Shown here one piece after another: positions 32,498 through 48,952 of a stretch of DNA of 48,952 bases. The stretch lies in NCBI GenBank assembly GCA_900316255.1, contig ONCI01000006.1, forward strand, positions 1-48,952, in the 5' to 3' direction. Both the position numbers and the translations under genes were made by a program. Within the stretch, counting starts at the first letter, position 1, and each line of letters starts with the position of its first letter. The notes below the pieces were generated by a model, which saw nothing but the letters and a program-made list of their open reading frames with translations, searched no databases and was not told where the DNA came from. This DNA comes from an uncultured Eubacteriales bacterium (GTDB lineage Bacteria; Bacillota; Clostridia; Oscillospirales; Oscillospiraceae).

Positions 32498-34240
32498 TCA
32501 AATGCTCCAGCCGGCGCTGGCCGTCTGCAGTTCGGTCATATGGCGGAAGATGCCGCCGTCCTTTCGCAGGAGTTCTTCAGGGCGGCCTTCCTCGGCGACC
32601 TTGCCCTCTGCCAGCACGACGATGTGATCTGCCGCCTCCACGGTGCGCATCCGGTGGGCGATGACCAGAACCGTCTTCCCTTGCAGTAGACGGGACAGAG
32701 CGCCCTGAACCTTTGTCTCGTTCTCCACATCCAGGGATGCGGTTGCCTCATCCAGCAGGACGATCGGTGCGTTTTTCAGCAGCGCACGGGCAATGGAGAT
32801 CCGCTGCCGCTCACCTCCGGAGAGTTTTGCACCGTTTTCGCCGATGGGCGTATCGTAGCCCCGGGGCAGCTTGCTGACGAACTCCTCGCAGTTGGCCGCC
32901 CTGGCCGCGCGGATCACCTCTTCGTCCGTCGCGCCATGACGGCCCAGGCGGATATTCTCCATCACCGTGTCGTCAAACAGCACCACGTCCTGGAATACCA
33001 TGGCGTAGTCTGTGAGCAGCACCTCGGGATCGATGGTGGCAATATCCACGCCGCCCACTTCGATGCTGCCCTGGTCGATGTCCCAGAGCCGGGCCGCGAG
33101 CCGGGCGCAGGTGCTTTTGCCGGAGCCGGAAGGACCGACCAGCGCGGTCACTTCTCCTTCCTTCGCGGTGAAGCTCACGCCGTCCAGCACCTGCTTGTCG
33201 TCATACGCAAAACCTACGTTATTGAATACGATGTCATGCCCATGCGGCGCAAAGTGCTCCGCGCCCTCGGCGGTTTTTGCGTCCTGGATCTCCATGAGGC
33301 GGTTGGCGGAGACCTGAGAGACGAACATCTCCGCGATCAGCGCCAGTGCCTGATCGAAGGGGGCGTAGACGCGGGTGATGACCAGCAGGAACATGAAGAG
33401 GGTCATGAAGTCGATCTGTCCGGAGAGGATCATCGTCGTGCCGGTGAGGATCGTGGTCGCCACGCCCAGACGCATGATGACGCTGGCCGCGTTCACGAAA
33501 ATGCCGGTGGAGAGCTCGCCGCGGATCATGGTCGCCTCATGATGATCGATCTTGTCGCCCAGTTCCTTCAGGAAGCGATCCTCCTGGTTGGTGGCCCGCA
33601 CTTCCCGGATGTTCTCCAGCGTTTCCTGAATGCCGTCGGAGACCTGGATCCCGGCGGCCTTGGTGATCTCGGAATTGCGCTTGGCAAGCTTCCGGCTTCC
33701 AAAGAGCAATGCAAAGGCCACGGGTACGCCCCAGAGGCAGGCCAGCGCCAGCTTCCAGTTATACGCAAAGAGCATCACAGCGATGATGGCCGTGGAGACA
33801 TAAGAGCCGTAGAGATAGCCCAGGCAATGGGACCAGACGTGCTCCAGCCGGTTCACGTCGCCCATGATGGTCTCCGTCAGATCCGCCAGATCACGTTTGC
33901 CGAAGTAGCCCAGCGGCAGCTTGCGCAGGCGCTCGGCCAGGCTGATACGGACGTTTTTTACCTCGCCGTACACCAGACCGTAGGTGGCCTTATACTGCTG
34001 CAGATGTGTAAGAAATGAGAGCACGACAAAGGCCAGCACCAAAAGCAGGATCGGCAGCGCCCTGGGGAGCTCCGCGCCGGCAGTCAGCGTGTCCATGTAG
34101 CGGGACATCATCAGAAACAGGATGCCCATACCGCCCATGACCACCAGGTTCACGATCACGGTCCAGAGAGTGCCCTGTTTGACGTTCTTGACCCCCTGCT
34201 CTGAAAGGGCGTATTTGTGCTGAAAATCTTTTCCGAACAT
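32498..34240 (-). CDS. ABC exporter-type transporter, fused permease/ATPase (subunit 2)
   Basis: The protein is 580 residues long from the ATG at 34240 (AAGGAGG 9 bases upstream). Six membrane segments lie in about residues 25-320, followed by an ATPase with Walker A GPSGSGKST, signature LSGGERQR and Walker B IVLLDEATASLD. It is the second half of a heterodimer with the gene ending one base upstream. Type IV exporter-fold pairs include drug and lipid exporters, and also IrtAB-like siderophore importers. The substrate is not evident. The neighbouring metal-related operon makes a metal ligand a possibility. Confidence 0.88.
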   Translation of the reverse strand: MFGKDFQHKYALSEQGVKNVKQGTLWTVIVNLVVMGGMGILFLMMSRYMDTLTAGAELPRALPILLLVLAFVVLSFLTHLQQYKATYGLVYGEVKNVRISLAERLRKLPLGYFGKRDLADLTETIMGDVNRLEHVWSHCLGYLYGSYVSTAIIAVMLFAYNWKLALACLWGVPVAFALLFGSRKLAKRNSEITKAAGIQVSDGIQETLENIREVRATNQEDRFLKELGDKIDHHEATMIRGELSTGIFVNAASVIMRLGVATTILTGTTMILSGQIDFMTLFMFLLVITRVYAPFDQALALIAEMFVSQVSANRLMEIQDAKTAEGAEHFAPHGHDIVFNNVGFAYDDKQVLDGVSFTAKEGEVTALVGPSGSGKSTCARLAARLWDIDQGSIEVGGVDIATIDPEVLLTDYAMVFQDVVLFDDTVMENIRLGRHGATDEEVIRAARAANCEEFVSKLPRGYDTPIGENGAKLSGGERQRISIARALLKNAPIVLLDEATASLDVENETKVQGALSRLLQGKTVLVIAHRMRTVEAADHIVVLAEGKVAEEGRPEELLRKDGGIFRHMTELQTASAGWSI

Positions 34241-36073: not shown

Positions 36074-36089
36074 GTTAGATATTGCTAAC
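36074..36089. promoter_or_regulatory. Inverted repeat GTTAG-ATATTG-CTAAC upstream of the ABC pair
   Basis: This 16-bp inverted repeat lies in the leader of subunit 1, 30 bases before its start. TTAG/CTAA half-sites resemble those of DtxR/IdeR-type metal regulators, but with different spacing. A specific operator is likely; the regulator is not in the window. Confidence 0.45.
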
Positions 36090-36166: not shown

Positions 36167-36304
36167 GAAAAGCAGACAAAGTCTGCTTTTCATAGCGCGT
36201 CAGCGCGTCGGAAACTGTATGAGACGTCATCTGTGCTTTCGCACAGATGGGCGACGTGTTGAACGGCGCCTTTTCAATAAAAAGTGTCTGCTTTTTATTG
36301 AAAA
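36167..36304. repeat. Cluster of three perfect hairpins inside a gene remnant
   Basis: GAAAAGCAGAC-AAA-GTCTGCTTTTC (36167-36191), ATCTGTGC-TTTC-GCACAGAT (36229-36248, extended by outer ACGTC/GACGT pairs) and TTTTCAATAAAAAG-TGTCTG-CTTTTTATTGAAAA (36271-36304) are all perfect. The two outer ones share an AAAAGCAGACA / TGTCTGCTTTT motif in inverted orientation, giving terminal inverted repeats of a roughly 125-bp unit. This looks like a miniature mobile element or a structured RNA. Confidence 0.5.
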
Positions 36305-36323
36305 ACAGTATTACTCCTCCTTT

Positions 36324-36419
36324 TCCGCGAAGATCGTCGGTAAAACCGTTGTGGGAAGTGAACACGTAGCGGATCCTGCCGAGGTCGAGCTTATTCCGCA
36401 GTGCCTTCAGAGACTCCAT
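36324..36419 (-). pseudogene. C-terminal fragment of a metallo-beta-lactamase-fold gene
   Basis: About 32 codons (RIRYVFTSHNGFTDDL) match the end of MBL-fold hydrolases and resemble the end of the MBL protein at the right edge of this window (VITGHTGWTDDL). The fragment overlaps the 61-residue gene at its 5' end and is cut off at the hairpin cluster. It has no catalytic core. Confidence 0.6.
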
Positions 36420-36592
36420 GTGAGGATCTGCGCCATGTGCTTATAGTTGCCCTTGTCGCAATAGGCCTTTTCCTTTTCAATGAGCTCCCGCATTCGGGCG
36501 TAGACGTCCTCCCGGATCTCTGCCGGGAGGCTCGGGAAATAGTTCTGATAACGGCTGATCGCCACCAGCTGTTTCGGTTCATAGTTCTTCAT
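36407..36592 (-). CDS. Small hypothetical protein, last complete gene of the large operon
   Basis: The protein is 61 residues long from the ATG at 36592, overlapping the upstream stop (ATGA). It is helical and charged (EIREDVYARMRELIEKEKAY). Its last residues run into the MBL fragment, so the natural C-terminus may have been replaced. Function unknown. Confidence 0.5.
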   Translation of the reverse strand: MKNYEPKQLVAISRYQNYFPSLPAEIREDVYARMRELIEKEKAYCDKGNYKHMAQILTWSL

Positions 36593-37224
36593 TTTGCATT
36601 CTTTACCCGGTCTCCAACGACCCAGTAGTCGCAAATGCTGTCTCCGTTTGCGATCGTGTGTTCCCGGAAAAGCTTCCCGTGCTGCAGGCGGAACATGACC
36701 TCATCCGTGGAACAGAGGGCTGGCATGAGTTCCGCAATGCCTTCCCGCCGGCAGAATTCGCAGATCGGGCAGCGTGTAAAGTAGTAAAAGCTTCCGTCCT
36801 GGTGCCGGGACTCATCAAAGCAAACGTTCCAGTTGACCGGATAGTCTTTACCGTGCTTTTCAAACCAGGCCTCGTACTTCTTCATATCCCGGTACCATTT
36901 CTTCGGCTGCCTGTTCAGGTCGGTCATGCCGAACACGGTCCGGAGGAACTTCGATTCCAGTACGTCCGTCATGACAAGCGCCATTTCCTCCGGCGTGATC
37001 TCCCGGCCGCTCCCCAGCCAGGCCGCGGCAAAAACATAGGCAAAGTACGCGTTCATGGCCATGGGATTGCCGGGACCGAGCTCGTCCGCCCGGGACAGAA
37101 GTCTTTTGTATTCCTTTTTCCCTTCCCGGATCGACCGATCCGCCAGAGCGGTGTCAAATCTTGTCCGGATGCTCTTCTTGATCATCGGCGCAAACAGCGA
37201 CCAGTAGATTCCAACGTATTTCAC
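36589..37224 (-). CDS. ATC-hydrolase-family protein (paralog 1)
   Basis: The protein is about 211 residues long. The C-terminal part matches the L-2-amino-thiazoline-4-carboxylic acid (ATC) hydrolase family (PF14196): YYFTRCPICEFCRREG, then CSTDEVMF and TIANGDSICDYW. The cysteines in CPICEFC and the later Cys may form a catalytic or metal-binding site. The founding enzyme opens a thiazoline ring in cysteine metabolism, but most family members are untested. The GTG at 37224 is preferred (GGAG 10 bases upstream); a GTG at 37263 is possible. Two paralogs lie in the same operon. Confidence 0.7.
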   Translation of the reverse strand: MKYVGIYWSLFAPMIKKSIRTRFDTALADRSIREGKKEYKRLLSRADELGPGNPMAMNAYFAYVFAAAWLGSGREITPEEMALVMTDVLESKFLRTVFGMTDLNRQPKKWYRDMKKYEAWFEKHGKDYPVNWNVCFDESRHQDGSFYYFTRCPICEFCRREGIAELMPALCSTDEVMFRLQHGKLFREHTIANGDSICDYWVVGDRVKNAK

Positions 37225-37287
37225 AGCTTTTCTGCTCCGTTCTATTTCTTTACACTGACCCACAGGCCGTTTTCCTTCGTTTTCAGC

Positions 37288-38088
37288 TCATACTCTGCAG
37301 CGATCGGATACTGTCTCCCATCCTGCCGCAAGTTCCATAAACTCGTCGATCGCCTGCAGCACCGGCGCGGTGTACTTTTCCCCGCCGAAGAGCCACTGCT
37401 CATGCTGCATATTAAACTCGCGGATCTCCGGATCCCGGAAATACTTTTTATATCGCTTCAGATACTTTTCACCCATTTTGTTGGCATAGATGAAATGGAT
37501 CTTCGTGCCCTCCACATGGATATCGTCCCTGAGCCAGGTGAGAAGGTCCGTGTAGTATTCGTTTTTGATGGACTCCGGGCTGAATTTGGAAAAGCAGCCC
37601 ATAAAGCGGTCCGCCGCCTCGTCGTCCATTTCGAAAATGCTCTTGAGTTTTTCCCTGGTTTTTATCCTCTTTTTCTCATTTTTGGTAAAGCTGGTCAGCA
37701 GCGGGACCACCAGCTTTGACTGCAGCCAGGCGCTGGCCTTTCCGCTCTGATCCAGATCCGGGCTGCCGAAGATGGCGTGGTCGACATGGACGTTCTCCCG
37801 CTGGATCAGCTGTCCGACGAAGCTGCTGCCCAAAGAGGAGCCGATCGCCCCGTCAATCTTTCCGTTATAGTTTTCTTTGATGTATTCTTCTATCTTCTCC
37901 GTAACCGTGATCATATCGGGAAAAATGGCGTCGCTTCCGTCAAATCCGTCGTAATTGACGCAGATCAGGTGGTATTTCTCGCCCAGGCGGTCCAGTACCG
38001 CAGCGAAGTTCGTCTGATAGTCGCAGGCCGTCCCCGGCAGCAGCATCAGTGTCTTCCCGGACGGGTTTCCCATTTCAACAAATTGCAT
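37288..38088 (-). CDS. Alpha/beta hydrolase (paralog 1)
   Basis: The protein is 266 residues long with AAGGAGG 9 bases before the ATG. The oxyanion-hole region is LLPGTACDY and the nucleophile elbow GSSLGSS (about residues 83-89); a late His (MQHEQWLFGG) is the candidate catalytic base. There is no signal peptide. It is paralogous to the 39309-40103 product (shared VNYDGF/LAYDGF and IEEYIKENYNGK/IEDYIIENYSGK). Ester, thioester or amide substrates are possible. Confidence 0.8.
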   Translation of the reverse strand: MQFVEMGNPSGKTLMLLPGTACDYQTNFAAVLDRLGEKYHLICVNYDGFDGSDAIFPDMITVTEKIEEYIKENYNGKIDGAIGSSLGSSFVGQLIQRENVHVDHAIFGSPDLDQSGKASAWLQSKLVVPLLTSFTKNEKKRIKTREKLKSIFEMDDEAADRFMGCFSKFSPESIKNEYYTDLLTWLRDDIHVEGTKIHFIYANKMGEKYLKRYKKYFRDPEIREFNMQHEQWLFGGEKYTAPVLQAIDEFMELAAGWETVSDRCRV

Positions 38089-38101
38089 CGATACGCCCTC
38101 C

Positions 38102-38596
38102 TTATTTCAGGATCACGGCCATAATCCCGGCGAGAACAGCCGCGATGAATGCCATTCCCACGGTTCCCATGATCCATTTCTGTTTCTTGTCCTTTGTTGT
38201 GATATACGGCCGTAAGTCCTCCGTGCCCGGGATGATCCAGGCCTTGGTATGGCCGACCCAATAATCATCGATCAGAAAGCGGTCGATCAGATTCATGACG
38301 GACAGGATCACAAAGCCCTGCCAGAAGCCGGGCCAAAAGCCCCGAGCACCGTTTATCACGTAAACGCAAATCAGCACGTAGATCAGATACCCCGGAAGGC
38401 AGAGGCTGCGGAAAAGCACGCTCCGCTTCCGGATCTCTTCCGCTGTCGTCAGTCCCAGCGCAACGACACGTTCCTGCACCTTTTTGTCATACAGATGCAC
38501 CATGCCGACGGCGCCGTTTCGGATACCGATCGCGCAGATCAGGTACAGCAGGAAGCCCAGACCAAGACCTTCCAAGATAAGCTTAAGCGCAATCAT
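38102..38596 (-). CDS. Small membrane protein (four-helix family, paralog A)
   Basis: The protein is 164 residues long with about four membrane segments (LILEGLGLGFLLYLICAIGI; LCLPGYLIYVLICVYVI; FWQGFVILSVMNLIDRFL; GTVGMAFIAAVLAGIMAVIL). A conserved acidic-aromatic stretch between helices 3 and 4 (DRFLIDDYWVGHTKAW) matches DTCFLDWVLF and DMIFFDWFLL in two other membrane proteins of the operon. It starts on the last base of the upstream stop (TGATG). Function unknown. Confidence 0.7.
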   Translation of the reverse strand: MIALKLILEGLGLGFLLYLICAIGIRNGAVGMVHLYDKKVQERVVALGLTTAEEIRKRSVLFRSLCLPGYLIYVLICVYVINGARGFWPGFWQGFVILSVMNLIDRFLIDDYWVGHTKAWIIPGTEDLRPYITTKDKKQKWIMGTVGMAFIAAVLAGIMAVILK

Positions 38597-39312
38597 CAGT
38601 CGGCCTCCCTTTCGTCATTCTTGATCGCCCGGATCCCCCCGAGGAACATCACGATCCAGCCAAGACTCTCGAAGCCCGACGCGAAGCCGTTGAAGGGCAG
38701 CGGAAGGATCAATTCCAGCAGAAACCCGATTCCGGCGATCAGCATCGGGGCTGCCAGCACCCAGCGCTTTTTCAGCGGCAGCACGCCCTTCCAAATGACG
38801 GCGATCCAGCCGACGGTGGTAGCGAACTCCAACACGACAAAACTGACCCAATATGGGACAGCCTGCACCAGATAAGCCCGATTCCAGGCCGCAACCGCGC
38901 GCTCCTTATCCCCTCCCACCGCCTCGAAGAGGACATTGTAGGTATGGATCAGCGTTCCGCAGGCCAGATGGAAATACACAAAAACCATGCAGCCCCAGTA
39001 AAGGCCGACAAGAAACAGCTTCAGGAAACGCTGGCCCCATTTGTCACCGCAGCGGGCCAGCTTCTCATTCAGATACCGCACAAAAGCCAGAGCGGCGATC
39101 ATGTACAGCGCGGTACCGATCAGCCCGCCGATATGGGACAGGGCGATCCGCCAGTCCGCGATCGTGAGCCAGCCGGAGGAGATCATGAAGGAGACAGCCG
39201 TGCTGTTCTTCGGCTCAAGGCCCATGCAATAGTCGCCGATGATGCACGGGATCATGGCCGGGATGATCCACAGCATCCGCTTTGTGATCTTCTCCCGTTC
39301 CTGAGATGTCAT
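38596..39312 (-). CDS. Multi-pass membrane protein (DUF6796-like)
   Basis: The protein is 238 residues long with six to seven membrane segments. It has conserved-looking motifs GDYCMG near the N-terminus and SSGWLTIADWRIALSHIGG after the first helix, a pattern I associate from memory with DUF6796. GGAGG precedes the ATG; the start overlaps the hydrolase-2 stop (ATGA). No transporter or enzyme motif is evident. Confidence 0.65.
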   Translation of the reverse strand: MTSQEREKITKRMLWIIPAMIPCIIGDYCMGLEPKNSTAVSFMISSGWLTIADWRIALSHIGGLIGTALYMIAALAFVRYLNEKLARCGDKWGQRFLKLFLVGLYWGCMVFVYFHLACGTLIHTYNVLFEAVGGDKERAVAAWNRAYLVQAVPYWVSFVVLEFATTVGWIAVIWKGVLPLKKRWVLAAPMLIAGIGFLLELILPLPFNGFASGFESLGWIVMFLGGIRAIKNDEREAD

Positions 39313-40103
39313 GCTTGTTCCTCCTTCTGTCTGGAGTACCGGTGAACCGCTTCCACCTCTTGGATGAAGCGCTCCGTGTTCTCGCCCACCAGGCCGCCGT
39401 GGCCCATGTCTTCAAAGATCTTACAGGTGAAGGGATAGCCCTCCGCCTTCAGTTTTTCCAGATTGGCGGACAGCTTTTTGTCCACCGTCCCCTTGACTCC
39501 GTACCAGATGTGCATATCCGTGCGGGCAAAGACGCTGTAATCCGTTTTCTTGCCGATCAGGCACTTGTCCTGATTCTTCCAGCTCTGCCAGCTGGCTTTC
39601 GTGTAGAGGATCCTGTCAGCCTCCTCTATGCTGCGGCCCGTGATCTTTGCCAGAAAGCGCTTGCGCAGCTTGCCCGCCCGGCCCATAACGACAAAGAAGG
39701 TCCCGGTAAAGAAGAACAGATAGAGCTCTTTCAGGGCTTCGTTTTTGATATCCGGGTAGTCCCGCAGGGACATGCCGTCGGCAATGGTCGTGGTGATCTG
39801 AAGACGGTCGTCTTCCAGCACCTGCATCAGCGTCCGGCAGCCGTAGGAGAGGCCGTAGAGGATATCCACCTTGCCGCTGTAGTTTTCGATGATGTAGTCC
39901 TCAATGCACCCTGCCTCATAGGCCACGGAGCGAAACTCCGTCTCCGGCTCGGAGGGATTGAAGCCGTCGTAGGCAAGCAACACAACGTGATATTTTTCCG
40001 CGATCTTCTTTGCGGTGGGAAGAACGCCGAGATAGCTGGTCCCGCCGCCGTGGAGAAGCACCATCAATTCTGCGTTTTCCTGCCCAAATTCAAAGTATTT
40101 CAT
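39309..40103 (-). CDS. Alpha/beta hydrolase (paralog 2)
   Basis: The protein is 264 residues long. The oxyanion-hole motif is LLHGGGTSY, the nucleophile elbow YGLSYGCR (about residues 83-90) and the catalytic histidine is likely DMGHGG. Soluble, no signal peptide. It is a diverged paralog of the 37288-38088 product. It overlaps the downstream membrane-protein gene, so the hydrolase and the membrane protein are made together. Confidence 0.82.
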   Translation of the reverse strand: MKYFEFGQENAELMVLLHGGGTSYLGVLPTAKKIAEKYHVVLLAYDGFNPSEPETEFRSVAYEAGCIEDYIIENYSGKVDILYGLSYGCRTLMQVLEDDRLQITTTIADGMSLRDYPDIKNEALKELYLFFFTGTFFVVMGRAGKLRKRFLAKITGRSIEEADRILYTKASWQSWKNQDKCLIGKKTDYSVFARTDMHIWYGVKGTVDKKLSANLEKLKAEGYPFTCKIFEDMGHGGLVGENTERFIQEVEAVHRYSRQKEEQA

Positions 40104-40127
40104 CTGCAGATAAACCTCTTCCGGTTC

Positions 40128-40634
40128 TCACCGAATCAAAGTCACGAGCCAGCCCACCAGAACGGCGGGGATCAGCGCGAAGATGATGCCGGGAAACAGC
40201 ATTCCCTTCGCGTGAAACCACTTCTGATGATAGGCCTTGTCCATATGCTCGGTGTCTTCCAGCCGGAACCTGGGCAGATTGGCGAACAGCACCCAATCGA
40301 GGAAACAGGTGTCATAGACGCCGATCCATGCCATCAGGCCAAAGGTCAGACAAAAGCCCTGCCGGAAGGTATTTGCTCCCGCAACGAGGGCGCAGACCAG
40401 CAGGATGCAGGTGAAGAGCAGCACGCCGAAGCCTTTCGTCAGGATCACGTTTTTGGACTTGTAGCTCACGTCGATGCGCTCGTGCGTTTTGAAGTATTCC
40501 TCCTGGATATCGGGCGGATAGTTGTGAATCGCCGCGGGACTGTGCTTCCTGTCTCCGCGGGACGCAAGGAAAACGATGGCTGTAAAGAGAGCCGCAAAGA
40601 CGGCCATTTCGATCAGGATGACCCAGATGCTCAT
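40128..40634 (-). CDS. Small membrane protein (four-helix family, paralog B)
   Basis: The protein is 168 residues long with GGAGG before the ATG. About four membrane segments; a cytoplasmic-looking loop after helix 1 (DRKHSPAAIHNYPPDIQEEY), and the family stretch GVYDTCFLDWVLFANLP before the last helix. It belongs with the products at 38102 and 40665. Function unknown. Confidence 0.7.
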   Translation of the reverse strand: MSIWVILIEMAVFAALFTAIVFLASRGDRKHSPAAIHNYPPDIQEEYFKTHERIDVSYKSKNVILTKGFGVLLFTCILLVCALVAGANTFRQGFCLTFGLMAWIGVYDTCFLDWVLFANLPRFRLEDTEHMDKAYHQKWFHAKGMLFPGIIFALIPAVLVGWLVTLIR

Positions 40635-40664
40635 ATTCGTACCTCCATGTAAATGCTATGATCC

Positions 40665-41162
40665 TCAGAACAGGGTGCAGATCCACGCCGCCAGCGCGGA
40701 CACCGCGGGAAAGATTACCAACAGCTTCAGCAGCTGGCTTTTGATGTTGAAGCCGTACTTTCTGCCGTCGTACACGGACGCCACCTCGGGGTAGTAATAC
40801 TGGAAGAACCGGAAACGGCACAGCAAAAACCAGTCAAAGAAAATCATGTCGTAGGCTTTGTAGATCGTAAAGATCAATACAAAGCGCAGGAAGAACTGTA
40901 AAAAAGAAAAGCCGCTCCGAAAACCGTCCCAGATGGAGATCACTCCTACGCCCAATATCATCAAAACACTGAGTACTATCAGCACCCAGCCCATGGCCCG
41001 GGCGCCGAAGAACAATTCCTCGATTCTGGGCTTCAAGACCTCCTGCGCCTCTTTCGGAGCTGAGGAGAAAAACCTCGTATCCTGAACAAAGGTCACCGCC
41101 GAGATGAGCAGGATCGTGATTGCTGCGCAGAATACGAGCGCCAAAAAAACCGTTAAGAGCAT
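40665..41162 (-). CDS. Small membrane protein (four-helix family, paralog C)
   Basis: The protein is 165 residues long with AGGAGG before the ATG. Four membrane segments, an internal charged loop (SSAPKEAQEVLKPRIEELFF) and the family stretch KAYDMIFFDWFLLCRF. It is adjacent to paralog B, suggesting that the two form a complex. Function unknown. Confidence 0.7.
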   Translation of the reverse strand: MLLTVFLALVFCAAITILLISAVTFVQDTRFFSSAPKEAQEVLKPRIEELFFGARAMGWVLIVLSVLMILGVGVISIWDGFRSGFSFLQFFLRFVLIFTIYKAYDMIFFDWFLLCRFRFFQYYYPEVASVYDGRKYGFNIKSQLLKLLVIFPAVSALAAWICTLF

Positions 41163-41183
41163 ATTGTTCTCCTCCTGATTCTT

Positions 41184-41203
41184 AAAAAGGCTGTCTGCTT
41201 TTT
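41184..41203. repeat. Intercistronic hairpin with the TGTCTGCTTTTTATT motif
   Basis: AAAAAG-N8-CTTTTT overlaps the stop codon of ATC paralog 2. Its TGTCTGCTTTTTATT also occurs in the hairpin at 36271-36304, pointing to a dispersed small repeat in this operon. Confidence 0.45.
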
Positions 41204-41873
41204 ATTTCGCGTCCGGGCCGGGCGTGAAGCCCAGCTCCTCGGCTCTGGCCCGGCTCATCAGATGGAAGTTGCATTCGTCGTCGCCCCAGCCCAGGGTCTT
41301 TGTCCGATCCAGCACGGCGCCCTGCATCTCAAAGGTATAATAATCCATCATGCAAAGGTACTTTGTGATCTCTCCGCAGTGCTCCTGCTTCGTGAGCTTG
41401 CAGATGCCGCACTGTTTGTGGGTGATGTAGTATTCTTCCTTTCCCGGCACGGTTTTAAAGTAGTAAAACCAGTTCATCGGGTATTCCTCGATATGCTCCC
41501 GCGACCACTTGGCCTGCCGGGTGCGGTTTGCGATCTCTTTTTCCGTAAAGGCGCTCTTGCCCTGCTTGGCCTTCACCATCAGCGGACAGTAGGCCAGCGC
41601 GTGAACCAGACCTTTCAGCGTCTCCTCATCCATCCGGCCCTCCGCCTCTTTGTAGAGTGCGATCGCAAAGGCCCCGCAGTACATGGTCAGCACGAACATA
41701 TTGTCCTTCATGCTGCCGATGCCCGGCGTCCGTTCCACAATGGCCCGGTACTCCTTCAGCACACGCTTTTGATAGGAGACCATATCCAGTCCCGGGATCG
41801 CTTCTTCCAAATAGGCAAAGGCCGTTTTGGCGAAGGCGAGCTTGATAAAGCCGCCCAGGATTCCATATTTCAT
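41202..41873 (-). CDS. ATC-hydrolase-family protein (paralog 2)
   Basis: The protein is 223 residues long with GGAGG before the ATG; the start overlaps the P-type ATPase stop (ATGA). The family core is YYITHKQCGICKLTKQEHC, then YLCMMDYYTFEMQGAVLDRT. CGICKL parallels CPICEF and CGICTL of the other two paralogs. A mostly helical N-terminal half precedes it. ATC hydrolase activity is not established for this branch; a cysteine-based enzyme or metal binder are both possible. Confidence 0.7.
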   Translation of the reverse strand: MKYGILGGFIKLAFAKTAFAYLEEAIPGLDMVSYQKRVLKEYRAIVERTPGIGSMKDNMFVLTMYCGAFAIALYKEAEGRMDEETLKGLVHALAYCPLMVKAKQGKSAFTEKEIANRTRQAKWSREHIEEYPMNWFYYFKTVPGKEEYYITHKQCGICKLTKQEHCGEITKYLCMMDYYTFEMQGAVLDRTKTLGWGDDECNFHLMSRARAEELGFTPGPDAK

Positions 41874-43908
41874 GTTACTCCTCCCTCCGGCAGCAGCGGC
41901 GTCATGCAGTCCATGCTCAGAAGCAAAGTCGAGCTGTTGTGCAGCAGGGCCGAGGTGGCAGGCTGCAGCACGCCGAATGCCCCCAGGGCGATCAGCGCGC
42001 CGTTGAAGCCCATGACAAAGCGGTAATTCCGGTCGATGCGTCCCATGAGCTTTTGGGAGAGCTCCCGCAGCAGCACCAGTTCCCGCAGATCTTCCGCCGC
42101 GATGGTGATGTCCGCCACTTCCCGGGCGATGCTGGCCCCGCTGCCGATGGCGACGCCCACGTCCGCCAGCGACAGGGCGGGCGCGTCGTTGATGCCGTCG
42201 CCGATCATGACGACCTTGCGTCCCGCCTCCTGTTCGGCACGGATAAAGGCCGCCTTGTCCTCGGGCAGCACCTCGGCGCGCCAGGCGTCAATGTTCAGCT
42301 TCTCCGCAATGGCGGCCGCCGCAGAGCGGTTGTCCCCGGTGAGCATGACGACCTTCCGGATCCCGGCCTCGTGGAGAAGCTTTACGATCTCCTTTGCTTC
42401 CGGGCGCAGCGGGTCATAGATGCCGATGGCCGCGGAGAGCCGCCCGCCGATGGCCAGATACAGCCAGGAGCAATCCGGCTCCAGGGCGTCAAACGCCGTC
42501 TGGTCCTCCGGCAGGATCTGCGCGCCCTCATCTTCAAAGACGAAGTGGCGGCTGCCGATGACGGCCCGCTCGCCGCCGATCCTAGTGGCGATGCCGTGGG
42601 CCACCACGTATTCCACTTCGCTGTGCATCTCCCGGTGGTCCAGCCCCCGCTCCCGGGCGGCGCGCACCACGGCGTTTGCCACAGAGTGGGGGAAGTGCTC
42701 CTCCAGGCAGGCGGCCACGCGCAGCATTTCCCGCTCATCTTGTCCCCGGAAGGGTACGACCTTCCGCACCGTGGGGCAGGCGTTGGTGAGGGTGCCGGTC
42801 TTGTCAAAGATCACGGTGTCCGCGCGGCTCAAAATCTCCATGTACTTGCCGCCCTTGACCGTGATCTTGTGGCGGCCGGCCTCCCGCATGGCAGAGAGGA
42901 CGCTCAGGGGCATGGAGAGCTTCAGGGCGCAGGAGAAGTCCACCATCAGCACCGAGACGGCCCGCGCGGTGTTGCCGGTCAGCAGCCATGTGAGCGCGCT
43001 GCCGCCCAGGCACCAGGGCACCAGCCTGTCCGCCAGGCGGTAGGCCCGGTCCTCGGTGCCGGATTTCAGGCGTTCGGACTCCTCGATCATGCGCACGATG
43101 CGATCATAACGGTTTTCGCCCGCGGAGTGGGTTACGCGCAGGACGCAGCTGCCCTCCTCCACCACGCTGCCCGCATAGACGGCGGCACCGGGACGCTTTG
43201 CCACTGGGACGGATTCTCCCGTGAGCGACGCCTGGTTGAGCATCACGTCCCCCTGCTCTAGGATGCCGTCCAGCGGCAGGACATGGCCAGTGTGGACGAT
43301 GATCCGGTCTCCGGCCTGAACCTGAGACAGCGGGACGAGCACCTGGGTACCGTCCTCCGTCAAAAGCCAGACCTTGTCCACCTGCAGGGACATGCTTTTG
43401 GCCAGATCGTCCACGGATTTCTTGTGGGTCCAGTCGTCCAGAGTCTCGCCCAGGGAGAGCAGGAAGCGCACGGAACCCGCGGTGGAGAAATCCCCGGTCA
43501 GGAGCGAGGCGCCGATGGCCACGCCGTCGAGCACCTCCACGGTAAGCCTGCCCCGCAACAGAGTTTTGGCGGCCAGCCAGATGCGCGGGATGGCGTTGAC
43601 GGTGTTGATCACCCGGCGGATCGGCAGGGGCAGAAAGAGCTTTTTTCCATAGTGCCGCAACACCTGGAAGACCAGCTTTTCTTTGTACTCCCGATTGATC
43701 TCGCGGCTGTGGGGGCTGAGTACATGCGCCTCTTCTTCGGCTTCCTCGTAGGAAAAGCGGGATAGGGCGCTGTACAGCGCACCTGATCCACGCCGGGCAG
43801 GGCCAGGATCCAGGCCTCCAACAGGTCGGCATCATGCATGCTCATGGAGCGCTGCACCGCCCGCAGACGGACGCGCCCCCGGCTTTCATGCAGAATCTGG
43901 AATCTCAT
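41870..43908 (-). pseudogene. Heavy-metal P1B-type ATPase, N-terminal domain split off by a frame disruption
   Basis: The catalytic core is one open frame of about 597 residues (43663-41870): actuator TGES, phosphorylation DKTGT, hinge GDGINDAP and a transmembrane SCALKLSMP where CPC/SPC motifs usually sit. The N-terminal HMA-like domain (RGRVRLR, then MHDADLLEAW) starts at the ATG at 43908 but is in another frame. After DQV (about 43780) the reading must shift to continue as ALYSALSRFSYEEAEEEAHV. About 20 residues expected between these parts are missing, so an internal deletion rather than a 1-base error is likely. The core might still be made from an internal start such as the TTG at 43663. 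Confidence 0.75.
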
Positions 43909-44165
43909 GCTTTCGCAGTATCTTCGATGTACTTTTCCTCTTCGGTGGCTCGCGCCTCGTTGATCGCTTTGGCGTCGGCCAGGATATCTGAACAGCCCTC
44001 CTGCACGGCTTCCACGTCCCGCATCACCTGGTCGCGGCAGCGCAGCACGGCGGCGGTAGCGTGGGTATAGACCTTGCGGGCATCCTTGCTGCCCAGAAGC
44101 TTGAAGCCGGCGGAGCCAAACAGCGTGCCGCCCACAAACAGTGCGATTTTTCCGGTAGTAGTCAT
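43905..44165 (-). CDS. DUF6110-like small membrane-anchored protein
   Basis: The protein is 86 residues long with AGGAGG before the ATG. A single hydrophobic segment near the N-terminus (IALFVGGTLFGSAGFKLLG) is followed by SKDARKVYTHATAAVLR and a charged helical tail. This matches the DUF6110 pattern usually found next to heavy-metal P-type ATPases. It overlaps the ATPase gene start (ATGA). It may be an accessory subunit. Confidence 0.75.
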   Translation of the reverse strand: MTTTGKIALFVGGTLFGSAGFKLLGSKDARKVYTHATAAVLRCRDQVMRDVEAVQEGCSDILADAKAINEARATEEEKYIEDTAKA

Positions 44166-44208
44166 ATCTTTTTTCCTCCTATGTTTGCCCGGCGTCTGCC
44201 GGGTTTTT

Positions 44209-44838
44209 TTACTTCTTCCTGTATCCGCAGTCGCAGTACGGCCCGCCGCTTGCCAGGGTGTACTGCCGTACGAATTCCGATACGCCGCCCGCCTCGCTCA
44301 TGGTGTAGTCCAGATGGCACATGGCGGGGGTCAGTTCAAACAGACCCAGTTCCTTCATCAGCGTGCAGATGCCGCATTTGGTAAAGCGGCCCTCATAGCC
44401 GCTGCCGTCCGGATAGGGCAGATAGTCCATGTTCCAGGAATAGGGGTTGCGGTCTGCGGCACGCAGCGCGGCGGTATCCTTCATGCCCTGAAGATCCGCG
44501 TCCGTAAACTTGCGCTTGGCGCTCATCCGGCAGAACCACCGGGTGGGCGCAGTCATCATGGCCTGCGCGTAAAACACGGTGGCATCCTCCACTTTCGGCC
44601 GCCGCTCCATACTCAGCAGAAAGGCGCAGAACAGGGCACAGTTGACGATATTCATCTGGAAGCGGTCGCCCTTTTCAAATGCCGGGAGCTTTTCGATAAT
44701 CTCCCGGTACTTCGGTTCTGCCTTTTCCGTGATCTCCTTTGCTTCTCGCGGGGTGTAGCCCAGTACGGAGACCAGGTGTTCCCGGAACGACCTCCGATAC
44801 AACAGCCACATGCCCAGCGGCATTCCCATGTACTTCAT
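44209..44838 (-). CDS. ATC-hydrolase-family protein (paralog 3)
   Basis: The protein is 209 residues long. The family core is GRFTKCGICTLMKELG, then AMCHLDYTMSEAGG and GGPYCDCGYRKK at the C-terminus. Cysteines in CGIC, MCHLD and YCDCG could form a catalytic or metal site. Its start overlaps the stop of the LCM-type methyltransferase (ATGA), so it may act on the methylated product or on the same substrate (inference). Confidence 0.7.
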   Translation of the reverse strand: MKYMGMPLGMWLLYRRSFREHLVSVLGYTPREAKEITEKAEPKYREIIEKLPAFEKGDRFQMNIVNCALFCAFLLSMERRPKVEDATVFYAQAMMTAPTRWFCRMSAKRKFTDADLQGMKDTAALRAADRNPYSWNMDYLPYPDGSGYEGRFTKCGICTLMKELGLFELTPAMCHLDYTMSEAGGVSEFVRQYTLASGGPYCDCGYRKK

Positions 44839-45677
44839 TCTTTACCCTCTCCGAATGTGATCTTCACGATCACCATCTTGACCAGGCTGTCGCAGAAACG
44901 GATCATCAGCTTATGAAAGGCGTTCATCTTAGGGTAGATGTCCCGGTAGCCGCGCATATAGCTTTTCGTCGAGACATCTGCGAACTGTTTGCTCCAAAGC
45001 TTCAGGATCACGGGCTCGTCCAGGGAGAAGAGCGCGTTGACGTCCCGGATCCCGGCCCCCTTGAGCCAGGTTTTGGTCATCATCTTCGCGCCGCGCCGGT
45101 TGCAGCAGTCAAAGACCAGCACCGCGCCGGGAAAGCGCTCCGCCATCGCTCGAAACAGCGCCTTGACCGCCTCTGTCTCAAAGTAGTAGAACACGCCGGA
45201 GGCGAAGAACACCGCGCCCCCGCTCGCGTCGATCCGGTCCATCCAGCCGTGGTCATTCAGGTCGATGCCGATGTTTTCTTCCCGCTCGCCTGCGGGCAAC
45301 AGCTCGTCTCTTACGGCGATCACATCCGGCATGTCAAGGTTATAGCCCCGGCACCGGCCGTTATCCACCTGAGAAAAGGTGTCGTCCAGCCCGCAGCCCA
45401 GGTTGACCACTGCCGCTTTGGGGTGGGCTTTCAGATAATCCCGCACCTCCCACATGAGGTCATACTGCCGCTGAGCCACCTCCAGCGCGCCGAAGAGTCC
45501 CGCCTGGGACTCCATGAGTTTCCGCTTTTCGGAGAAGTCATAGTCCAGCATGGCGCAGATGCGCTTCGCCGACGGATCGGAAAACAGCTCCGGGTAATGC
45601 TCGGAGCAGATGAGCCGCCCGAAGAGCGGGATGATGAGGGTCTCCTGAACGGAGTTCTTTTCAATGTGATATTTCAA
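44835..45677 (-). CDS. LCM/PPM-type SAM-dependent methyltransferase
   Basis: The protein is 280 residues long from a TTG at 45677, chosen because GGAGG lies 8 bases upstream; longer frames lack a site. The motif VVNLGCGLDDTFSQVDNG (about 87-104) is typical of the leucine-carboxyl-methyltransferase family (PF04072), whose members O-methylate small molecules and carboxylates. No signal peptide. It is the first of the ATC-linked genes in the operon. Confidence 0.8.
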   Translation of the reverse strand: MKYHIEKNSVQETLIIPLFGRLICSEHYPELFSDPSAKRICAMLDYDFSEKRKLMESQAGLFGALEVAQRQYDLMWEVRDYLKAHPKAAVVNLGCGLDDTFSQVDNGRCRGYNLDMPDVIAVRDELLPAGEREENIGIDLNDHGWMDRIDASGGAVFFASGVFYYFETEAVKALFRAMAERFPGAVLVFDCCNRRGAKMMTKTWLKGAGIRDVNALFSLDEPVILKLWSKQFADVSTKSYMRGYRDIYPKMNAFHKLMIRFCDSLVKMVIVKITFGEGKE

Positions 45678-45690
45678 GCTTTTCTCCTCC

Positions 45691-46473
45691 TTAGCCCAGC
45701 GCCACATCCAGAGCCATCATCAGGCTGAAGCCGAAAGCGAAGGCAATGACGCCGATATTGGAATGTTCTCCCGCAGACATCTCCGGGATCAGCTCCTCCA
45801 CGACCACATACAGCATGGCCCCGGCGGCAAAAGAGAGCAGATAGGGCATGGCGGGCACGATCAGCCCCACCAGGAGCACCGTCAGCGAGCCGAAGATCGG
45901 CTCCACCGCGCCGGACAGGAGACCAAGCCAGAAGGATTTACCCTTGCTCTTACCCTCGGCATACAGCGGCATGGAGATGATCGCGCCCTCCGGGAAGTTC
46001 TGGATCGCGATGCCGAGAGTCAGGGCCAGCGCCCCGCCCGCACTGATCATCCCGGAGCCGGAGAGAAGCCCCGCGTACACGACGCCCACCGCCATTCCCT
46101 CCGGGATGTTGTGGAGCGTCACCGCCAGGACCATCATGGTGATCCGGGCCAGATGGCTCTTCGGCCCCTCCGTCTGATTCCCGGCGCGGTGCAGATGCGG
46201 GATGACGTGGTCCAGCAGCATGAACGCAATGCCGATCCAGAAGCCGAGGAAAGCCGGAAGAAAGGCCAGACAGCCCTTGGAGGCCGACTGTTCGATAGCC
46301 GGTACGATCAGGCTCCAGATGGACGCCGCCACCATGACGCCTGCCGCGAAACCGTTCAGCATCCGCTGAACACTGAGCTTCAGATCTTTTCGGAGGAAGA
46401 ACACGCAGGCTGCTCCGGCCGAGGTGCCGATAAAGGGAATCAGAAGTCCGAACAGTACGGTGCTTATTTCCAT
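45691..46473 (-). CDS. ZIP-family metal transporter
   Basis: The protein is 260 residues long from the ATG at 46473 (GAAGGG upstream; the longer frame to 46770 reads through the HMA gene). It has eight membrane segments. The ZIP metal-site motifs are in helix IV, TLHNIPEGMAVG (about 119-130), and helix V, QNFPEGAIISMPL (158-170); a short His-containing loop (HVIPHLHRA) precedes them. ZIP proteins import zinc, iron or manganese into the cytoplasm. The metal here is not determined. Confidence 0.9.
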   Translation of the reverse strand: MEISTVLFGLLIPFIGTSAGAACVFFLRKDLKLSVQRMLNGFAAGVMVAASIWSLIVPAIEQSASKGCLAFLPAFLGFWIGIAFMLLDHVIPHLHRAGNQTEGPKSHLARITMMVLAVTLHNIPEGMAVGVVYAGLLSGSGMISAGGALALTLGIAIQNFPEGAIISMPLYAEGKSKGKSFWLGLLSGAVEPIFGSLTVLLVGLIVPAMPYLLSFAAGAMLYVVVEELIPEMSAGEHSNIGVIAFAFGFSLMMALDVALG

Positions 46474-46718
46474 CCGAACCAGCCCTTCCGTTCTGCTTCG
46501 GCGCTCTCCACCGACAGGCAGGTATAGCCGGTCGCGCCAATGGCAGCCTTCAGGGCCGCTGCGTCTATCGGATCTTCCGTCAGAAAAGATGCCTTGCCAT
46601 ATCCATGAGAGGCACTCACCTTCTTCGCAGCCGGGACGGCCTTTCGGATCGTGTCGCAGATATGAGCCTCGCACATGCCGCACATCATGCCGTCGATTTT
46701 CAGCACTGTCTTGATCAT
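46464..46718 (-). CDS. Heavy-metal-associated (HMA) domain protein
   Basis: The protein is 84 residues long (ATG at 46718; a GTG at 46733 is an alternative). It is a single ferredoxin-like HMA domain with the metal-binding loop GMMCGMCEAH (GMxCxxC) and IDAAALKAAIGATGYTC at the end, then a short tail rich in Trp and Lys. It is a small metallochaperone-like protein for Cu, Zn or a similar ion. It overlaps the ZIP gene by 10 bases. Confidence 0.85.
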   Translation of the reverse strand: MIKTVLKIDGMMCGMCEAHICDTIRKAVPAAKKVSASHGYGKASFLTEDPIDAAALKAAIGATGYTCLSVESAEAERKGWFGWK

Positions 46719-46729
46719 TTTCTTTCTTC

Positions 46730-47527
46730 TCACTTTCTCCCTGCCAGCAGGGTTGATCCGCCGAGACCAAGGAAGACTGCCTCCCTGCGTCCCATGAATC
46801 GCCCGTCCGTGGTGTCGATCAGGCGCACATCCTCATAGCCCGCGTCCTTCAGCTTTCGAACGAAGGCGTCCATGTCGCCGTAGCGCGCTTTGCTCATCAA
46901 GTCATGGATGGCAAAGGTGCCGCCCCTTTTCAGCACCCGCAGGGTCTCCATCAGCAGCTTCTGCTTGTCCTGCCCGGCGATGTTATGGTACACATAGTTG
47001 CTCGTCACGGTGTCAAAGCTCTCGTCGGGGAAAGGCAGATGCACGGCGTTGCCCTCTTCAAAGCGTGCGTTGCTCACGCCCTCGGCCGCGGCGTTTTCCT
47101 CGCAGCGCTTCTTTGTGAAGACCGCTTTGTACGCGCCGCTCCAGATATCGCAGCCGACCATCTGCGCCTTGGGATTGCGCTTGGCGCAGGCGATGGTCAG
47201 CGCACCGCTGCCGCAGCCCACGTCCAGCCCCGTGCCGCCGTCGGGAAGCGTCACGAAGTCCGCCGTCCCGTCGATGATGGTCTTTGCCAGCTTGCGCTTT
47301 CCGTTGTAGTCAAAGGTCCGGTGCAGGGCGCCCATCCAGGCGGTGTAAAACAGCAGCACCGGGGTAGCTGCGCCGAAGGCAGCGGCGGCGATCTGCCGCG
47401 GTCTGCCCTTCAAAATGCGATCCGCTGCGCCAAAGAGGGCGAACAGGCCCGCGGAAACGGCCGCCGCCGCGCCGAGACCGATCACCATGCTCGTCGGCAC
47501 CCAGTTTTTATAGTCCGGTTTTTTCAT
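46730..47527 (-). CDS. Membrane-anchored class I SAM methyltransferase
   Basis: The protein is 265 residues long from the ATG at 47527 (AGGGG 7 bases upstream). Two N-terminal hydrophobic segments (MVIGLGAAAAVSAGLFALFG; AAAFGAATPVLLFYTAW) are followed by a class I methyltransferase: TGLDVGCGSGALTIAC, then VGCDIWSG and AVHLPFPDESFDTVTSN. The membrane anchor suggests a lipid or membrane-bound substrate (inference). It lies 16 bases downstream of a second methyltransferase gene. Confidence 0.82.
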   Translation of the reverse strand: MKKPDYKNWVPTSMVIGLGAAAAVSAGLFALFGAADRILKGRPRQIAAAAFGAATPVLLFYTAWMGALHRTFDYNGKRKLAKTIIDGTADFVTLPDGGTGLDVGCGSGALTIACAKRNPKAQMVGCDIWSGAYKAVFTKKRCEENAAAEGVSNARFEEGNAVHLPFPDESFDTVTSNYVYHNIAGQDKQKLLMETLRVLKRGGTFAIHDLMSKARYGDMDAFVRKLKDAGYEDVRLIDTTDGRFMGRREAVFLGLGGSTLLAGRK

Positions 47528-47543
47528 ACACTTTCCCCTTATA

Positions 47544-48224
47544 TCATTTGACACAGCGGAAGCAGCCGATGCCTTCCACTCTCGTCACGTTCACCTCGCT
47601 GTACATCCCGGCAAGGCGATTTCTCAGACTTGTCTCCGTCTCATAGGGCGGCGTGAAAAAACCCTTGGGCTGGTAGAGATGGCGGATGAACCAGTCGGTC
47701 CGTTTGCAGCCGCCCTGCACATAAAAGCAGCCGCAGAAGGTCCCGCCGCGCTTCAGCACGCGGAAGGTCTCCCGGTACGCCGCTTCCTTGTCCGGGAAGG
47801 CGTGAAAGCCGTTGAGGGACAGCACGATGTCAAAGCTCTCGTCGGGGAAGGGCAGCGCGCCCACGTCCCCCTGCACGAAACGCACATTCCCGATTCCCAC
47901 CTTTTGTGCACGCTTCTGCGCCGCCGCCATCATATCGGGCGAGTAGTCCAGGCAGGTGATTTCCGCCCCGGGCAGCTCCCGGTATACCGGCATGGTCAGC
48001 ACGCCGGTGCCCACCGGCACCTCCAGCAGCTTTCCGGAAAAATCCTCCGGCACGCCGGAGAGGACGCGCTCAAGGTAGCGCAGGTTTTTCTCTCCGTCCA
48101 TGTTCCACACGATCCGGCAGATGGCTTTGCCCGGCAGCGTGGAATAAGTCATCATCCCGTCATAAAAGGAGGATACCCCTCCGGTCAGCTTATAGGCGTT
48201 TTGAATCTGTTCTTTTCGTGTCAT
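47544..48224 (-). CDS. UbiE-like class I SAM methyltransferase
   Basis: The protein is 226 residues long with GGAG before the ATG; its start overlaps the MBL stop (ATGA). Motif I is LLEVPVGTGVLTMPVY (Pro and Val replace the usual Gly-Cys/Gly), motif II ITCLDYSP and motif post-I ALPFPDESFDIVLS. The atypical motif I is seen in some Clostridial members that I recall. The substrate is unknown. Confidence 0.8.
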   Translation of the reverse strand: MTRKEQIQNAYKLTGGVSSFYDGMMTYSTLPGKAICRIVWNMDGEKNLRYLERVLSGVPEDFSGKLLEVPVGTGVLTMPVYRELPGAEITCLDYSPDMMAAAQKRAQKVGIGNVRFVQGDVGALPFPDESFDIVLSLNGFHAFPDKEAAYRETFRVLKRGGTFCGCFYVQGGCKRTDWFIRHLYQPKGFFTPPYETETSLRNRLAGMYSEVNVTRVEGIGCFRCVK

Positions 48225-48952
48225 ATTGCTCCGCCCCCGCTCTGTTTCTTTTTGGAAAGCGGCACGTTCCGCGCCCCTTCTTCCGTGTCGTCTGCTTCCT
48301 CATAGCCGTCGTAAGGGGCCTCCGGATCGGGATAGCGTCTGGTAAAGGGCTTGCAGATCTCCGCACGATGGGCAAAGGCGAAGTCGAGATCGTCCGTCCA
48401 GCCGGTGTGCCCGGTGATTACAGCGATCCGGCCCTTCCGCGCGCGGATGTTCCGCTCCAGCCGTTCCAGGGAACGGACCGCCAGCTTGTTGTCTTCCGCC
48501 AGGGTGCTGATAAAGCTGTAACCGCCGTCCGCGCCGAACCAGATCGTGTCCCCGGTAAAGAGGTATTCGTCATCGACGAGATAGACCATGTGTCCCCAGG
48601 TATGGCCGGGGACGAGGATGCACTCGATCTTGATGTCGCCGATGTGAAAAACCTCGCCGTCGCGCAGGAGCACCTTTCGGTTGTCCATCTTGACCATCGG
48701 CAGCTTGTACAGGCCGTGGATGACCTTTCGCCGCGTTTCGCCGGTCAGATAGCGGTTTTCGATTTCACCGATGTAGACCGTGGCGTTTTGAAACAGCCGC
48801 TCGCTGTCCTCCTCCAGTGCGCCGACGTGGTCGGTGTCCTGGTGGGTAATCAAAATGTGATCAATGCTCGCCGGGTCAATGTCCAGCCACCGCATCTTCT
48901 CCTGCAGCCGGGCATAGTTGTAGCCCGCGTCGATCATGATGGTGACGCCGTT
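48221..48952 (-). CDS. Metallo-beta-lactamase-fold protein (N-terminus outside the window)
   Basis: The frame continues past the right edge; 243 residues are visible. The metal motif reads THQDTDHVG, with Asp where the second His of HxHxDH usually sits. Later ligands are GHTWGHMVYL, the bridging Asp in LFTGDTIWFG and the final His in VITGHTGWTDDL. The C-terminal tail is acidic then basic and unrelated to the fold. It is the most upstream gene of the operon seen here. Glyoxalase-II-like or other hydrolase activity is possible. Confidence 0.82.
   Translation of the reverse strand, partial: NGVTIMIDAGYNYARLQEKMRWLDIDPASIDHILITHQDTDHVGALEEDSERLFQNATVYIGEIENRYLTGETRRKVIHGLYKLPMVKMDNRKVLLRDGEVFHIGDIKIECILVPGHTWGHMVYLVDDEYLFTGDTIWFGADGGYSFISTLAEDNKLAVRSLERLERNIRARKGRIAVITGHTGWTDDLDFAFAHRAEICKPFTRRYPDPEAPYDGYEEADDTEEGARNVPLSKKKQSGGGAI

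Follow-up and report, generated by a model that had tools for sequence, protein, structure and literature searches.

What is the purpose of a tightly packed gene run in which metal transporters stand among methyltransferases, hydrolases and three proteins of the ATC hydrolase family? The question is raised by contig ONCI01000006.1 of an uncultured Eubacteriales bacterium (assembly GCA_900316255.1; 2.71 Mb in 136 contigs, 96% complete), the whole of which, 48,952 bases, is the window analysed here (contig C54 of the genome). An initial annotation described a roughly 12-kb operon of about 18 minus-strand genes, followed by an exporter-type pair of ATP-binding cassette (ABC) proteins, and proposed a single metal system, perhaps one making a small metallophore or a modified lipid. 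We find that the cluster shares an operator palindrome, GTTAG-N6-CTAAC, with loci for feoB and DtxR-family regulators and is for that reason most likely part of a DtxR regulon that responds to iron; to judge from these sequences, iron control through a DtxR-type operator is highly probable. A single metal system is thus supported, its metal being iron by the shared operator, while biosynthesis of a small metallophore is not borne out and none of the findings favours a modified lipid. Overall, the observation behind the initial annotation was confirmed and its interpretation partly supported. Gene content, its recurrence across genomes and the operator with its position at feoB are direct observations, and the connection to iron is well supported; which protein is the repressor, transcription as one unit, import by the ABC pair and a role in ligand processing are what we infer.

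The motif was reached through the half-sites of the DtxR box in a scan for known regulators, in which the DtxR consensus with up to five mismatches gave 45 matches in 1.79 Mb, 19 in shuffled sequence and none in 0.40 Mb of control sequence. Fur, MntR and Zur operators were rejected on their few matches (Fur19 6, MntR 2 and Zur 2 in 1.79 Mb; 2, 0 and 0 in the control; 1, 6 and 4 in shuffled sequence). These shuffles preserved single-base content alone, and variation of the spacer is the better control. It was applied to 80 loci (1.10 Mb) found with the LCM-family methyltransferase of the run as marker, the best 80 of at least 571 relative-encoding stretches among at least 593 stretches scanned in named genomes; at least five of the 80 are the same contigs as loci used for building the family models. 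In these LCM loci a spacer of six bases gave 94 sites and every other spacer from 0 to 12 gave 0 to 6. A perfect site is present in 50 of the 80, as against one of 20 control loci (0.40 Mb) from six LCM-carrying genomes. Genes of the 43 modelled families have 82 of the 94 sites close by, between -40 and 300 bp from their first start codon; random positions in the same loci averaged 21 and never exceeded 33 over 200 trials.

Exactly four perfect sites, and no reversed-pattern site, occur in the 2.71-Mb genome of the window. One precedes ABC1, the first gene of the ABC pair; one lies on contig C21 before a methyltransferase of the run; the other two are on contig C5, before a DtxR remnant and a methyltransferase of family c6. 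Among 200 genomes of one family, for which our statistics ignore shared ancestry, 778 sites were counted against 199 of the reversed pattern, with a mean of 7.50 sites per genome where the LCM gene is present and 3.04 where it is not (reversed pattern, 0.84 and 1.03). A cultured relative, Lachnospira pectinoschiza M83 (L138), also has a perfect palindrome, at 9689, near its LCM match, which runs from 10001; this counts for the iron-regulon reading, as does the DtxR remnant on C5.

The tie to iron comes from the genes that the sites adjoin, namely feoB, DtxR-family genes, and DUF3793 and flavodoxin genes. A test designed as independent of the LCM gene used 18 divergent dtxR/feoB loci of 1.7 to 2.6 kb each, picked by adjacency among the matches listed. 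A perfect site occurs somewhere in 17 of the 18 (37 sites; other spacers from 0 to 11 gave at most one each) and between the two genes in 16 (33 sites, 14.1 kb), comprising all seven loci from genomes with the LCM gene and nine of the 11 from genomes in which none was detected. Four of the genomes (G041, G104, G125 and G079) had sites already known before the test; of the 14 loci whose sites were not previously known, 12 show a perfect intergenic site. All 20 regulators compared, those of the 18 loci and two homologs from the genome of the window, carry the Cys-type metal motif DACxxEH, and a cysteine at that position is described in the relevant part of PMC3672683 as marking a response to Fe(II) rather than Mn(II). 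One regulator copy, that of L041, has 126 residues and matches the iron-dependent repressor domains PF02742 and PF01325; the two homologs, one of them encoded at C27:14584-14943, are 43% and 44% identical to it. Expression reports offer some background: in Faecalibacterium duncaniae a flavodoxin gene goes up together with feoAABC (PMC10781979, excerpt), and a row of a co-expression table for F. prausnitzii (PMC9674144, excerpt) shows the numbers 7 and 14 for a gene group that includes ATC, from which we take it that half of its 14 members, 7, fall in one module. Three loci (L087, L100 and L126) have feoB with two operator sites nearby, inside or beside LCM islands.

Several observations weigh against so simple an assignment. 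A perfect intergenic site is missing from two of the 18 dtxR/feoB loci: in L255 no site occurs at all, and in L252 the interval contains near-matches only, its two perfect sites falling outside. When feoB loci were selected purely by score, just four of 30 had a site, and one lies upstream of only 7 of 18 DtxR genes within LCM and ATC loci, so that the operator is better linked to the dtxR-linked class of feoB than to feoB at large. Even in relaxed form no site is found in 22 of the 80 LCM loci, some of them short contigs, and the two full DtxR homologs of the window's own genome, of which one is situated where a contig begins, lack a perfect site in the flanks retrieved. Literature on this motif together with iron and DtxR, in a search with subscription journals mostly outside its scope, concerned Corynebacterium DtxR only, and a narrow search of the same scope for DtxR with feoB in Clostridia returned none.

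The genes that this operator is predicted to control, with the operator itself and the ABC pair beyond it, are the following.

48221..48952, minus strand: MBL-fold metallo-hydrolase, truncated at the 5' end by the contig boundary (PF00753, 4e-15; 99-bp overlap with contig C21)
47544..48224, minus strand: class I S-adenosylmethionine (SAM) methyltransferase MT1 (PF13649/PF08241; family in 32/80 LCM loci)
46730..47527, minus strand: class I SAM methyltransferase MT2 with a hydrophobic N-terminal stretch (PF08241; family in 29/80 LCM loci)
46464..46718, minus strand: HMA-type metal-binding protein with CxxC (PF00403, 23.2 bits, under the cut-off of 24.8)
45691..46473, minus strand: ZIP metal transporter (PF02535, 7e-16)
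44835..45707, minus strand: LCM-family methyltransferase, the marker for finding relatives (PF04072, 2.5e-10; 38/200 family genomes)
44209..44838, minus strand: ATC-family protein ATC1 (PF14196, 2e-22; AlphaFold model, pLDDT 92.6)
43905..44165, minus strand: DUF6110 protein, putatively FezA-like (PF19605, 5e-29)
41870..43908, minus strand: P1B-type ATPase, putatively FezB-like (PF00122/PF00702 in the main open reading frame)
43609-43908 and 41870-43663, minus strand: N-terminal and main open reading frames of the P1B-type ATPase, mutually out of frame
41202..41873, minus strand: ATC-family protein ATC2 (PF14196, 8e-21)
40665..41162, minus strand: small membrane protein MEMa, D-x4-D (profile comparison, alignment)
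40128..40634, minus strand: small membrane protein MEMb, a paralog of MEMc (hhalign probability 99.5)
39309..40103, minus strand: alpha/beta hydrolase ABH1 (PF12697, Abhydrolase_6, 4.6e-5, 24.6 bits, just under the cut-off of 26.3)
38596..39312, minus strand: DUF6796 membrane protein (PF20599, 1e-33)
38102..38596, minus strand: small membrane protein MEMc (alignment; model pLDDT 91.8)
37288..38088, minus strand: alpha/beta hydrolase ABH2, a paralog of ABH1 (hhalign probability 99.2 to ABH1)
36589..37263, minus strand: ATC-family protein ATC3 (PF14196, 1e-24)
36407..36592, minus strand: 61-residue protein (tblastn matches in two relatives, L056 and L060)
36074..36089, no strand: operator palindrome GTTAGATATTGCTAAC, 29 bp upstream of ABC1, one of the four perfect sites of the genome
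34242..36044, minus strand: ABC1 half-transporter, YbtP/IrtA-like (top half-size PDB match YbtP, 6p6i_A, 306 bits)
32498..34240, minus strand: ABC2 half-transporter, YbtQ-like (top half-size PDB match YbtQ, 6p6i_B, 277 bits)

From position 48952 to 36407 the minus strand thus holds 18 genes whose 17 junctions measure -17 to +43 bp with the starts chosen, followed after 362 bp by the ABC pair, just as densely as had been described. The families named in the initial annotation likewise agree with the reading-frame list and with Pfam scans of 20 window proteins, which gave the assignments listed and no match for the three small membrane proteins, ABH2 or the last small reading frame. The 362-bp gap before ABC1 contains an 89-residue reading frame (36150-36419) and inverted repeats; no homolog of this frame was found in the fetched loci.

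The extent of about 12 kb needs correcting, since the first gene, for the MBL-fold enzyme, is cut at its 5' end by the contig end and continues as a reading frame on contig C21, which overlaps the right end of the window by 99 bp; the run is accordingly longer than is visible here. Further upstream, C21 encodes two additional class I methyltransferases and two hydrolases, one of BAAT_C type and the other an Abhydrolase_3 protein. The join is supported by L078 (RUG467), where a single contig has the unbroken order c24, c26, c11, c6, MBL, MT1, MT2, LCM, ATC1, DUF6110, P1B and ATC2, with only HMA and ZIP missing. Contig C5 ends in another methyltransferase of family c6, there read in two frames, and it is plausible that it adjoins C21 in the genome; an overlap between the two was sought and none was found. 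On C5, between two operator sites and this methyltransferase, lies the C-terminal remnant of a DtxR-family protein (L196:3091-3243, DACRVEH), from which it seems that the island once carried its own regulator. At the other end, just past the ABC pair and on the opposite strand, an HTH_17 protein and a phage-type tyrosine integrase (PF00589, 3.5e-21) occupy positions 29604-31289, neighbours by which the island may formerly have been mobile.

A gene order confined to this genome was to count against the single-system idea; the gene set does recur elsewhere, though with its order reshuffled. Of the 80 LCM loci, 71 contain one or more of the 16 window families other than LCM and the ABC proteins, 42 contain at least three and 28 at least five. 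On the same count two of the 20 control loci have one such family (P1B) and none has more. By family, the LCM loci contain ATC1 38 times, MT1 32, MT2 29, HMA 28, MBL 25, ZIP 23, MEMc and DUF6796 19 each, ABH2 and MEMa 17 each, P1B 15, ATC2 and DUF6110 10 each, MEMb 6, ATC3 4 and ABH1 3, with the two ABC proteins at 25 and 29; the controls contain P1B twice, the ABC proteins once and six times, the other window families not at all, and the non-window families c24 and c5 once each. Gene order and content are shuffled between genomes, and a core order, ATC1-HMA-ZIP-LCM-MT1, is retained in nine of the 80 loci and in 17 when ZIP is optional. All 80 loci are, by title, from metagenome-assembled genomes or uncultured organisms, many from rumen or gut samples, except for Lachnospira pectinoschiza M83, and the titles of the matching records name Oscillospiraceae or Ruminococcaceae. 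A search for other reading frames that recur near the 80 LCM genes (components in at least four loci, judged by eye) gave mostly shadow frames of known genes and, beyond these, a few real genes, each in at most eight loci; flavodoxin and DUF3793 genes do occur in the same islands.

Within the 200 family genomes the LCM gene is found in 38, ATC in 42 and DUF6110 in 44. The co-occurrence proposed for checking holds in part of them, with LCM and ATC together in 17 genomes, which is significant but modest, alongside the ZIP and P1B counts just given for the LCM loci (23 and 15 of 80). LCM-family matches of any identity share a genome with DUF6110 in 20 of 200 cases, and the two genes lie within 10 kb of each other in eight genomes (0.35 expected) and within 20 kb in 13.

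If the cluster answers to iron, what would it do with it? The direction of transport by the ABC pair matters here. The pair is present as the initial annotation had it, but among half-size PDB chains its closest matches, by a modest margin, are those of YbtPQ, an importer of exporter fold: ABC1 scores 306 bits with YbtP, 293 with IrtA and 258 with MsbA, and ABC2 277 with YbtQ, 262 with the exporter TM288, 251 with MsbA and 232 with IrtB. YbtPQ and IrtAB are importers that have an exporter fold (PMC10967856, excerpt), and import is accordingly the presumed direction for a pair whose nearest half-size match is a siderophore importer. Two scores tell against this: TM288 is only 15 bits below YbtQ for ABC2, and full-length P-glycoproteins outscore YbtP and YbtQ in total score, the latter because their two halves add up. 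Elsewhere, four loci (L064, L074, L129 and L214) combine a membrane-protein family, c22 (PF09605, Trep_Strep, in the L074 copy), with ABC pairs of exporter type and regulators of AraC or TetR type, and three of them (L064, L129 and L214) have operator sites; they resemble further loci for iron-ligand transport. A putative lipoprotein without a Pfam match lies between an AraC regulator and an ABC pair at L048:15691-16407, is present in L046 too, and could conceivably bind metal in partnership with the transporter.

Less can be read from the enzymes. The three ATC paralogs named initially all exceed the curated cut-off of PF14196, but ATC2 and ATC3 are each only 21% identical to ATC1 and the three are, by sequence, old paralogs. 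Six residues, among them C155, C174 and C202, are invariant in an alignment of 27 ATC sequences. A thiazoline-type ligand was set aside as suggested by the family name of PF14196 alone, which is not substrate evidence. ABH2 is counted as an alpha/beta hydrolase because its profile matches that of ABH1. MEMa, MEMb and MEMc have in common two invariant aspartates across 34 aligned sequences; profile comparison links MEMa and MEMb to MEMc (hhalign probabilities 97.1 and 99.5) and MEMa to MEMb directly only weakly (37), and the MEMc model (pLDDT 91.8) found no convincing fold match in the PDB (best E 2.5). Both CxxC cysteines of the HMA protein are kept in 35 of 35 aligned sequences. Arsenic or mercury methylation, suggested by NCBIfam matches of MT2 and HMA, was dropped because the scores are far under their cut-offs and because UbiE scores MT2 as well as arsenite methyltransferase does. 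What the ATC proteins, methyltransferases and hydrolases do chemically is treated below as conjecture.

In the model that we favour, low iron would take a DtxR-family repressor off the GTTAG-N6-CTAAC operators, and the run and the ABC pair would be transcribed. The YbtPQ-like pair would take up iron bound to a small ligand; the ATC proteins, alpha/beta hydrolases and methyltransferases, aided by the small membrane proteins, would alter or open the ligand so that iron is released; the ZIP transporter and HMA protein would carry metal ions, and the DUF6110/P1B-ATPase pair would store or move iron. That acquiring and handling ligand-bound iron is the purpose of the cluster has about an even chance of being right, and we would put an iron-starvation operon for import, processing and storage of such iron at the same evenly balanced level. 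It is possible, though distinctly less probable, that the enzymes of the run process the ligand. Equally tentative is the widest form of the proposal, a widespread undescribed pathway of rumen and gut Clostridia in which iron bound to a ligand, be it a siderophore of another organism or a chelate of plant or host origin, comes in by the YbtPQ-like pair and is freed inside the cell as enzymes dismantle or methylate that ligand, with a shuffling toolkit of ATC, LCM and hydrolase genes, a new family of small membrane proteins and a new DtxR-type operator of six-base spacer. Two findings on gene content weigh against this model: nine of the 80 LCM loci, some of them short contigs, have no other window family, and the P1B-ATPase gene is frameshifted in the window's own genome.

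The best surviving alternative keeps the iron operator and turns the pathway round, the run making and secreting a small metallophore without a nonribosomal peptide synthetase (NRPS), with methyltransferases, ATC proteins and hydrolases in biosynthesis and tailoring and the ABC pair as exporter. Several methyltransferases and hydrolases per run, in combinations varying by genome, are indeed what biosynthetic clusters look like, but no NRPS, siderophore synthetase or ligase is among the 20 scanned window proteins, the recurrent reading frames around the 80 LCM genes include, by eye, no scaffold-forming enzyme, and the ABC pair is nearer an importer; we consider a metallophore unlikely. Somewhat less likely still is that the regulator is all these genes have in common, the island being a collection of unrelated functions used in iron starvation, such as iron-sparing remodelling of membranes or cofactors. 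The wide variation in order and content among loci and the flavodoxin and DUF3793 genes in the same islands would fit such a collection; the retained core order and the old same-family paralogs lying side by side would not.

A tetrapyrrole such as haem as the ligand, bound by the ATC proteins, imported by the ABC pair and dismantled by the enzymes, is a more doubtful proposition again. The ATC1 model does match H-NOX domains best in the PDB, with Bet3 and DmpR folds also found, PF14196 has been likened to HNOB and V4R domains (PMC5847659, excerpt), and the tolyporphin cluster has been assigned a protein, tolI, that bears the name of ATC hydrolase (PMC8401325, excerpt). All these fold matches are weak, however, those to H-NOX having TM scores of 0.35-0.43 and no E-value below 0.001, and no histidine is kept in at least 85% of sequences of ATC1 (47) or ATC2 (14), and one in ATC3 (8). 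That the palindrome serves another regulator, an island TetR-type protein, with an indirect link to iron, is very improbable. In its favour, 4 of 82 gene-proximal sites adjoin TetR-type c5 genes; against it, the palindrome stands between the genes at 16 of the 18 dtxR/feoB loci, and in nine of these cases no LCM gene was detected in the genome. The uptake and handling of ligand-bound iron under a DtxR-type operator is thus the reading that we retain. It gives a testable function, in the response to iron starvation, to several families that had none and that recur in rumen and gut Clostridia, namely PF14196 proteins, LCM-type methyltransferases, DUF6796 and the D-x4-D membrane proteins, and a predicted iron operator for a bacterial family would make iron regulons readable from the genomes of mostly uncultured bacteria.

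Two genes of the run recall the ferrosome. FezB is a P1B6 ATPase, and FezA we take to be equivalent to DUF6110. The fezA and fezB ferrosome genes are described from Clostridioides difficile and Desulfovibrio (PMC12574912, PMC10979944), ferrosomes of C. difficile require both products, and its fez genes are repressed by Fur (PMC12574912, excerpts in each case). DUF6110 proteins are typically encoded alongside P1B6 ATPases, which are recognised by HN in transmembrane helix 6 and the lack of CPC in helix 4 (PMC9374683, excerpt), and the ATPase of the window has the HN and lacks the CPC. The P1B-ATPase named in the initial annotation is present but out of frame: 55 bases near the 5' end that L035, L041 and L078 have are absent, which puts the N-terminal domain out of frame; the frameshift may be a fault of the assembly. 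By analogy, then, the DUF6110 protein and the ATPase resemble the FezAB pair.

How does the whole compare with known systems? In the openly available portions of the literature on ATC hydrolases, DtxR operators and DtxR/feoB, subscription journals being mostly outside its scope, no such cluster is described. Part by part, the ferrosome likeness consists in a small DUF6110 protein beside a P1B6-type ATPase under iron control, predicted in the case of the window; the pair here lies inside a long run with methyltransferases and ATC proteins, its ATPase gene is not intact, and a DtxR-type operator is predicted where C. difficile fez is under Fur. With YbtPQ and IrtAB the ABC pair shares its two half-size proteins, here with an iron operator in front, but ABC1 (600 residues) lacks the N-terminal extension of IrtA, whose 859-residue chain is matched from residue 299, and the match of ABC2 to IrtB (232 bits) ranks under several exporters. 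The equibactin locus eqbA-N of Streptococcus equi, as presented in the available part of PMC3672683, has a DtxR-like regulator (EqbA), iron-import ABC genes (eqbHIJ), a fused permease-ATPase ABC pair (EqbK and EqbL) and an alpha/beta hydrolase (EqbN); it also has NRPS genes, unlike the 20 window proteins. The DtxR/IdeR regulons are the nearest regulatory parallel, with a DtxR-family repressor of Cys-type metal site and feoB among the targets predicted here, and their box, TTAGGTTAG(G/C)CTAACCTAA (PMC1382209, excerpt), has the GTTAG and CTAAC half-sites in common with our operator. The half-sites are six bases apart here against one in that canonical 19-bp box, and half-sites around a one-base centre have no match in the 80 loci; the regulator here is short (126 residues in the L041 copy), and the regulon here takes in the ATC/LCM island.

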